This document shows positions 23,660 through 24,025 of a DNA stretch of 64,000 nt, one piece after another. The translations under genes were made by a program, and so were the position numbers. A model generated the notes under the pieces. That model saw only the letters and a list, made by a program, of their open reading frames with translations, made no database searches and was not told the DNA's origin. Within the stretch, counting starts at the first letter, position 1, and every line of letters starts with the position of its first letter. Origin of the DNA: an uncultured Pelagibacteraceae bacterium (GTDB taxonomy: Bacteria; Pseudomonadota; Alphaproteobacteria; Pelagibacterales; Pelagibacteraceae); assembly GCA_902599625.1 (NCBI GenBank), contig CACKGF010000001.1, forward strand, positions 124,001 to 188,000, given 5' to 3'.

Positions 23660-23736
23660 CGGGGCGTAGCGCAGCCTGGTAGCGCATCTGGTTTGGGACC
23701 AGAGGGTCGTAGGTTCAAATCCTACCGCCCCGACCA
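23660..23736 (+). tRNA. tRNA-Pro (anticodon TGG)
   Basis: A 77-base cloverleaf with encoded CCA. Acceptor stem CGGGGCG pairs with CGCCCCG, T arm GTAGGTTCAAATCCTAC, anticodon stem TCTGG/CCAGA around TTTGGGA giving anticodon TGG. The CCA end lies only 4 bases before the ATG of the next protein gene. Confidence 0.97.
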
Positions 23737-23740
23737 TTAT

Positions 23741-24025
23741 ATGAAAAAAAAAGCTAAAATTTACAAACCCACAAAAAGTTCGATGCAGTCGGGTTTAATG
23801 AAAACTAAAGAATGGATATTGGAATATATTGTACATAACGATCAAATTAATCCATTGATGGGATGGCAAAGCTCGTCAAATACATTATCAGAGGTTAAGA
23901 TGTCCTTTAATTCAAAAGAAGATGCAATTGATTATGCAAAGAAAAATAAGATAAATTATATAATAGTTGAACCAAACAAAAGATCAGTTGTCAAAAAATC
24001 ATACGCAGATAATTTTTTAAAATAA
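23741..24025 (+). CDS. Complex I NDUFS4-like subunit (ETC complex I conserved region)
   Basis: 94 residues from the ATG at 23741; an in-frame upstream ATG at 23693 lies inside the tRNA and is rejected. KKAKIYKPTKSSMQSGLMKT, then WILEYIV and PLMGWQSSSNTLSEVKMSF, closely match the NDUFS4/18-kDa accessory subunit of NADH dehydrogenase, which is restricted to alphaproteobacteria and mitochondria. It is 4 bases after tRNA-Pro and has no visible Shine-Dalgarno sequence. Its stop is immediately followed by the next gene's ATG. Confidence 0.88.
   Translation: MKKKAKIYKPTKSSMQSGLMKTKEWILEYIVHNDQINPLMGWQSSSNTLSEVKMSFNSKEDAIDYAKKNKINYIIVEPNKRSVVKKSYADNFLK

Follow-up and report, generated by a model that had tools for sequence, protein, structure and literature searches.

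A tRNA-Pro gene four nucleotides before an NDUFS4-family gene in SAR11 and the possible birth of near-leaderless mRNAs by tRNA excision

In animal mitochondria, protein genes abut tRNA genes, and excision of a tRNA sets the 5′ end of the neighboring mRNA, which is left with almost no leader. RNase P makes the 5′ end of a tRNA; at the other end, mitochondrial tRNase Z (ELAC2) cuts before the position at which the CCA is subsequently added. Punctuation of this kind extends over whole mitochondrial genomes. The tRNA-tufB operon of E. coli also carries a tRNA and a protein gene in one transcript, and processing separates the two. SAR11 bacteria, with which this work is concerned, are among the most abundant cell groups in the ocean.

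A leaderless mRNA is defined in one paper as having its 5′ end and start codon separated by fewer than 10 nt, and the same paper counts 264 mRNAs with leaders this short in S. coelicolor, compared with 5 in E. coli (PMC4681348). Mycobacterial leaderless mRNAs, according to a second paper, are made de novo rather than by processing (PMC4633059). Our search of open-licence PMC texts (titles and abstracts) returned neither bacterial leaderless mRNAs derived from tRNA processing nor transcription-start maps of SAR11.

The tRNA-Pro/NDUFS4 junction and its promoter

The stretch of DNA analyzed here (64,000 nucleotides, referred to as the window) corresponds to positions 124001-188000 of contig C1 (386 kb) in a SAR11 genome assembled as 13 contigs (1.08 Mb in all). 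A tRNA-Pro(TGG) gene with an encoded CCA occupies positions 23660-23736 of the + strand (ARAGORN; Rfam RF00005, 69.7 bits) and is the sole proline tRNA among the 29 tRNAs found in the genome. It is followed by the spacer TTAT (23737-23740, + strand), presumed to be both the cleavage zone and the entire leader, and by an ORF of 94 amino acids (23741-24025, + strand; ORF list and Pfam) of the NDUFS4 family. The junction reads CCCCGACCA-TTAT-ATGAAAAAA, with the CCA at 23734-23736 and the ATG at 23741, so a protein gene on the same strand abuts the tRNA almost without a spacer, as in tRNA punctuation. The ORF matches PF04800 with an E-value of 3.4e-33 (114.2 bits versus a cut-off of 31.9), its residues 4-93 aligning to positions 1-91 of the 96 in the profile and placing it in the family. 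Because the match begins at residue 4, the ATG at 23741 agrees with the N terminus of the family. The only in-frame start upstream is a TTG at 23693, within the tRNA, and the tRNA-NDUFS4 gap lengths of 57 loci of the same genus are spread over all three frames (25, 14, and 18), indicating that an extension through the tRNA is not conserved. A wrongly annotated start was considered for this and similar junctions and rejected, as the Pfam alignments start close to the N terminus (residues 3-4 in NDUFS4, residue 1 in trigger factor, and residues 1-3 in GIY-YIG proteins). When the NDUFS4 protein was compared with named genomes, 39 of 40 loci carried the label Pelagibacteraceae or Candidatus Pelagibacter, and identity reached 96%. 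The first-pass annotation of the window, which had put the CCA end at 23736 and the ATG at 23741 and had noted the absence of a Shine-Dalgarno (SD) sequence, is borne out in these respects by the sequence, ARAGORN, Rfam, and Pfam.

A candidate promoter lies just before the tRNA (23622-23650, + strand), consisting of TTGAAA, a 17-nt spacer, and AATAGT with a preceding TG. It was the only + strand match of the promoter scan from position 23000 to the ORF. The scan yielded 4 sites compared with 6.8 in shuffled sequences, and the match by itself therefore proves nothing. When the 70 nt before tRNA-Pro were aligned for 58 loci of the genus, TTGAAA near −37 and TGTATTAGTA at roughly −17 to −8 were common to them (columns conserved at 79-98%), the −10 part differing in a few loci (L004, L010, L063, L072, and L202). 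This conserved position suggests that transcripts start a few bases before tRNA-Pro. The single promoter before the tRNA that had been proposed at first pass is thus the sole + strand match in the region and keeps its position in the 58 loci. Further, no promoter-like + strand match was seen by the scan between 23650 and the NDUFS4 ORF, and a scan of 23000-24500, the tRNA-NDUFS4 gap included, revealed no terminator-like site. Together with the retention of the junction in 57 of 61 loci of the genus, the conserved promoter, the absence of a match inside the tRNA, and the absence of a terminator-like site in the gap make co-transcription the simplest reading, and the proposal that tRNA-Pro and NDUFS4 form one transcription unit from a conserved promoter upstream of tRNA-Pro is well supported by these sequence comparisons.

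We considered whether a second promoter, lying within the tRNA gene, could instead start a normal or a leaderless NDUFS4 mRNA; the first-pass annotation had named a promoter and start site there, giving a normal leader, as contrary to its proposal. The scan gave no promoter-like match there, neither the −10 element expected about 7 nt before the start of an mRNA made leaderless by transcription nor any other. Further, the 57 loci share only 7 distinct tRNA-Pro sequences, which leaves no room for an extra element, and such a promoter would need to recur in the other tRNAs with junctions of this kind. We regard it as highly improbable.

Downstream, a SbmA/BacA-like ORF (24026-25018, + strand; ORF list and Pfam) begins directly after the NDUFS4 stop codon and is probably the next gene of the tRNA-Pro/NDUFS4 operon, the two genes being close (−1 to 8 nt) in 61 of 61 loci of the genus. 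It is overlapped by a GlpX-type fructose-bisphosphatase ORF (25015-25968, + strand), which itself shares 4 nt with a RecJ-like ORF (25965-27650, + strand; both ORF list and Pfam). A tRNA-Glu(TTC) gene (27695-27769, + strand; ARAGORN and Rfam) stands 44 nt 3′ of the RecJ-like ORF, with a T-rich stretch in between, and forms the second tRNA-ORF junction of the window: 2 nt after it begins an ORF of 94 amino acids (27772-28056, + strand) that matches the GIY-YIG family from residue 2 (PF01541, E-value 3.1e-16).

Conservation of the junction and of the bases before the start codon

We collected the DNA around PF04800 matches as loci L001-L273, with one gene analyzed per locus. PF04800 was detected in 42 of the 61 genomes sampled for the genus (8 of the 11 of best quality), in 51 of 60 for the family, in 51 of 58 for the order, and in 148 of 192 for the class, these samples overlapping partly in their genomes; extra weaker copies in three genomes and two unlisted weak matches were left out of the class sample. 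With duplicates removed (L205 and L213 were fetched twice and counted once), the loci fall into groups of 61 from the genus, 44 from other genera of the family, 23 from a sister family, and 143 from the rest of the class; the loci within one group are related, and the counts are thus not independent.

In the genus, tRNA-Pro(TGG) lies within 200 nt upstream of NDUFS4 in 57 of the 61 loci, with a spacer of 3-8 nt (median, 5), and the 4-nt junction is, with such retention, beyond chance. Other genera of the family have the pair in 24 of 44 loci (and one more at a contig edge) with a spacer of 6-51 nt (median, 8), and the rest of the class in 73 of 143 with a spacer of 7-189 nt (median, 42); no locus of the 23 from the sister family has tRNA-Pro(TGG) within that distance. 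Only three class spacers are shorter than 15 nt (7, 13, and 14), and the 7-nt spacer (L177, in a genome of 1.4 Mb that belongs to another family) is perhaps an independent case. An SD-like 4-mer at −18 to −4 of NDUFS4 occurs in none of the 61 genes of the genus, as expected of leaderless mRNAs, in 4 of 44 genes from other genera of the family, in 3 of 22 from the sister family (one of the 23 loci had no called start), and in 103 of 143 from the rest of the class. The wide occurrence of the pair in the class, with longer spacers and SD-like sequences there, indicates that the pair is old and that the leader was lost in SAR11. On this comparative evidence, the SAR11 layout appears to have arisen by compression of an old tRNA-Pro/NDUFS4 pair, for which most other Alphaproteobacteria that have it keep a spacer of tens of bases.

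Four of the 61 genus loci are without the junction. In L225, tRNA-Pro is 760 nt upstream of NDUFS4, and in L065 and L069 none was seen near the gene. In L004 (positions 226-1494), an intact tRNA-Pro (226-302) is followed by a 297-amino-acid ORF and then by a second, 28-nt tRNA 3′ end directly before NDUFS4; the two copies of this 3′ end are spaced by 1187 nt, and the split junction looks like an integration at a tRNA 3′ end. We also note tRNA-Arg(TCT) genes on the other side of NDUFS4. In the sister family (f132; loci L220, L222, L223, L229-L232, L234, L238, L258, L259, L261, and L263-L272), the gap between the NDUFS4 stop codon and tRNA-Arg(TCT) is 0-4 nt in 22 of 23 loci; here it is the 3′ end of the gene that has the compressed junction. 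In the class group (143 loci among L031-L187), tRNA-Arg(TCT) is within 200 nt downstream in 102 and tRNA-Pro(TGG) within 200 nt upstream in 73. This flanking of NDUFS4 by tRNA-Pro and tRNA-Arg seems to be of long standing in Alphaproteobacteria.

Two features of the compressed spacer suggest constraint. First, tRNA and NDUFS4 overlap in 0 of 57 genus loci, compared with a one-base overlap of NDUFS4 and sbmA in 20 of 61 loci of the same set (Fisher value of 3.6e-7, which ignores the relatedness of loci); CCA followed by TG would yield an ATG, yet a tRNA-ORF overlap was never seen in the genus loci. Second, all 57 loci, with 28 distinct spacers among them, have T immediately before the ATG; on C1, T stands at this position in 118 of 388 ATG starts. 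A U at −1 could aid pairing with the initiator tRNA, and its conservation here could reflect such pairing or a preference of cleavage.

These features bear on the possibility that the junction is a product of streamlining only, with deletion of the spacer tolerated, NDUFS4 needed in small amounts, and the processed mRNA a poorly translated by-product. The compactness of the genome is in keeping with this, and NDUFS4 may be dispensable, given that 19 of the 61 genus genomes yielded no copy of it (3 of these 19 being among the 11 of highest quality). Set against it are the constraint suggested by the T and by the lack of overlap, and the occurrence of the same layout before trigger factor, HisS, and PolyA_pol-type genes (described below), which are not expected to be silent. 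We therefore consider it improbable.

Start regions and tRNA-ORF junctions across SAR11 genomes

To place the missing SD in context, we note that gene starts on C1 came from a rule-based caller (ORFs of at least 80 amino acids, ATG preferred; 399 genes) that misses secE (63 amino acids) and did not choose the GIY-YIG ORF, and the following SD and gap figures are therefore approximate: an SD-like 4-mer precedes 91 of 385 genes behind another coding sequence compared with 52 of 399 at a control position, and the median gap between coding sequences on the same strand is 1 nt. The genome is compact and SD-poor, and a short gap and a missing SD by themselves thus need no special mechanism. We dropped the absent SD as stand-alone evidence for this reason, even though the 16S anti-SD sequence GGATTACCTCCTTT is intact in all three SAR11 genomes inspected. 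Nor do we claim leaderless promoters genome-wide: −10-like hexamers at 5-8 nt before the ATG were equally frequent at 88 divergent and 200 operon-internal genes of C1 (0.0227 versus 0.0225 per position per gene), and with no excess of leaderless-type promoters at this distance on C1, a general skill in leaderless translation is unsupported. The A content of codons 2-5 was also compared (0.557 in 25 junction genes versus 0.474, S.D. 0.168, in C1 genes), and the difference was too small to be used.

The layout of the tRNA-Pro/NDUFS4 junction recurs at other tRNA genes in SAR11. We examined all 29 tRNAs of this genome and, in two further SAR11 genomes, 30 of 33 (G235) and 30 of 32 (G143), considering ORFs of at least 60 amino acids. 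An ORF starts 1-13 nt after the tRNA at 8 of 29, 7 of 30, and 10 of 30 tRNAs, respectively, i.e. at 25 junctions among 89 tRNAs, and Pfam assigned a family over cut-off to 7 of 8, 6 of 7, and 9 of 10 of the ORFs (22 of 25 in total). In this genome, the junctions are tRNA-Glu and GIY-YIG (gap of 2 nt), tRNA-Gln and a PolyA_pol head domain protein of the CCA-adding or poly(A) polymerase type (3 nt), tRNA-Pro and NDUFS4 (4 nt), tRNA-Leu(CAA) and an AMP-binding enzyme (4 nt), tRNA-His and HisS (5 nt), tRNA-Leu(TAG) and trigger factor (7 nt), tRNA-Gly(GCC) and pterin dehydratase (11 nt), and tRNA-Leu(TAA) and an ORF without a Pfam family (13 nt). Those with NDUFS4, the AMP-binding enzyme, trigger factor, and the PolyA_pol-type protein occur in all three genomes. 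The 25 short junctions include genes that are surely translated (trigger factor, HisS, and the PolyA_pol type). An SD-like match was present at three of them, two inside the tRNA and one (AAGGA) in the 12-nt spacer before trigger factor in G143, for which G143 seems less strictly leaderless. The genes secE and tuf follow tRNAs at longer spacers in the three genomes (16-22 and 36-40 nt, respectively), with an SD-like 4-mer before tuf in three of three and before secE in one.

As the single control outside SAR11, a larger alphaproteobacterial genome (G083; 4.6 Mb, 30 of 49 tRNAs examined) has 7 ORFs of at least 60 amino acids within 13 nt of a tRNA, two of them identical, and none of the 6 distinct ORFs has a Pfam match. 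We also observed that, in two SAR11 genera, a 5-nt spacer (AAAAA) separates tRNA-His from the downstream gene for its own synthetase, HisS (L300 in the present genome and L367 in G143), which is possibly a built-in link between the supply of the tRNA and that of the synthetase.

Processing, translation, and comparison with known systems

The 3′ end of every tRNA examined in the three SAR11 genomes (29, 30, and 30) encodes CCA. RNase E/G is present in the genome (E-value of 4.5e-98), and a profile for RNase Z (TIGR02651) had no match over cut-off in any of 11 SAR11 genomes (this one and 10 others); 9 of the 10 others have weak matches. Because 5 of 14 control genomes also match this profile only below the cut-off, which the remaining 9 pass, a divergent RNase Z is possible in SAR11. 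The only RNase Z match of the present genome, below cut-off, is an ORF for an MBL-fold hydrolase at 20612-21382 of the window, which scores 209 bits against another MBL family (still under cut-off) and 34.8 against TIGR02651. RNase Z as the cutter is unsupported, as there is no match over cut-off and this ORF fits the other family better; the mitochondrial type of 3′ cutter, tRNase Z, was thus not recognized here unless in a divergent form. Cleavage a few bases downstream of CCA-encoding tRNAs has been reported for E. coli, where RNase E-type cutting is followed by trimming, and for P. acnes, which is without an obvious tRNase Z (PMC4681348, PMC3848588). By analogy with E. coli, RNase E-type cutting followed by trimming is the likelier route of tRNA 3′ maturation in SAR11; it is favored by the presence of RNase E and the absence of a recognizable RNase Z, and it expects an encoded CCA, as is found. 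Searched by eye, the junction spacers displayed no consistent RNase E motif.

We propose that tRNA-Pro and NDUFS4 would be transcribed together from the conserved promoter, and that maturation of the sole tRNA-Pro from the readthrough transcript would require the loss of all RNA 3′ of the CCA. This would most likely happen by cleavage of the RNase E type, placed within the 4-base spacer or at its edge and followed by trimming to the CCA. The other product would be an mRNA that carries a 5′-monophosphate and 0-4 bases of leader, and the ribosome would start on it without SD pairing, as on leaderless mRNAs. Judged from the DNA, removal of the tRNA would leave at most 4 nt before the ATG, within the limit of less than 10 nt. 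The first-pass annotation had held that processing of tRNA-Pro releases an mRNA with a 4-base leader. The co-transcription on which this depends is upheld by the conserved promoter, the absence of a terminator-like site, and the junction in 57 of 61 loci; the missing SD is a weaker clue than had been claimed, given the SD-poor genome, and a leader of exactly 4 bases would need an endonuclease that cuts exactly after the CCA. A cut a few bases downstream would reach the NDUFS4 start codon, meaning that the leader may be 0-4 nt and that some transcripts might be lost.

The main rival, which we consider unlikely, is that NDUFS4 is translated from the uncut precursor: ribosomes would load co-transcriptionally on the AU-rich start, with the folded tRNA as 5′ leader and with some 8 bases (discriminator, CCA, and spacer) left unpaired between the acceptor helix and the start codon, and later processing would free the tRNA and destroy the message. 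The start region is predicted to be fairly open in the precursor (0.644 unpaired, compared with 0.535 with shuffled ORF letters); release of the tRNA is predicted to change this little (to 0.691), a point against the excision reading. In addition, most C1 genes have no SD, making AU-rich SD-less starts the rule, and some junction gaps reach 12-13 nt and are not necessarily leaderless. However, every transcript that gives a mature tRNA loses its leader, and tRNA processing is usually fast. The predicted best fold of the precursor leaves the tRNA fold unchanged in 43 of 57 loci and alters it in 14, which also counts against this explanation.

Overall, we regard co-transcription followed by excision of the tRNA, leaving a near-leaderless NDUFS4 mRNA, as the best single explanation, with a probability of about 0.5. 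Such excision may act as punctuation between tRNA and mRNA at several other SAR11 genes. More tentatively, and at somewhat less than even odds, we suggest that tRNA excision is a routine maker of mRNA 5′ ends in SAR11, at roughly one in four of the tRNA genes examined (those followed within 1-13 bases by a protein gene, among these trigger factor, HisS, and a PolyA_pol-type tRNA nucleotidyltransferase), with mRNAs that become leaderless or nearly so only once the tRNA is cut out, and that mitochondrial tRNA punctuation thereby has its counterpart in a free-living bacterium, arrived at through genome streamlining. If so, tRNA maturation and mRNA birth would be one event, and the supply of a tRNA and the synthesis of particular proteins would hang on one cleavage. 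SAR11 ribosomes would have to start on near-leaderless messages of needed genes, and the mitochondrial layout would have a bacterial parallel that is testable in cultured strains.

The layout resembles tRNA punctuation in mitochondria in that SAR11 protein genes directly adjoin tRNA genes, and differs in that the CCA is encoded, RNase Z is not recognized, and about a quarter of the tRNAs are involved. Like the leaderless mRNAs of Actinobacteria (Streptomyces and Mycobacterium), the predicted SAR11 mRNA has no SD and would have a leader of less than 10 nt; in those bacteria, however, transcription begins at the start codon, whereas the SAR11 5′ end would come from cleavage. The tRNA-tufB operon of E. 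coli has its like in SAR11 in tRNA-Gly(TCC)-tuf, with a spacer of 36-40 nt and an SD-like 4-mer; an operon of this type keeps a leader with room for SD pairing, which the SAR11 junctions of 3-8 nt cannot. The tRNA-Pro(TGG)-NDUFS4 pair of other Alphaproteobacteria consists of the same genes in the same order (73 of 143 loci), with a median spacer of 42 nt compared with 3-8 nt in the genus.
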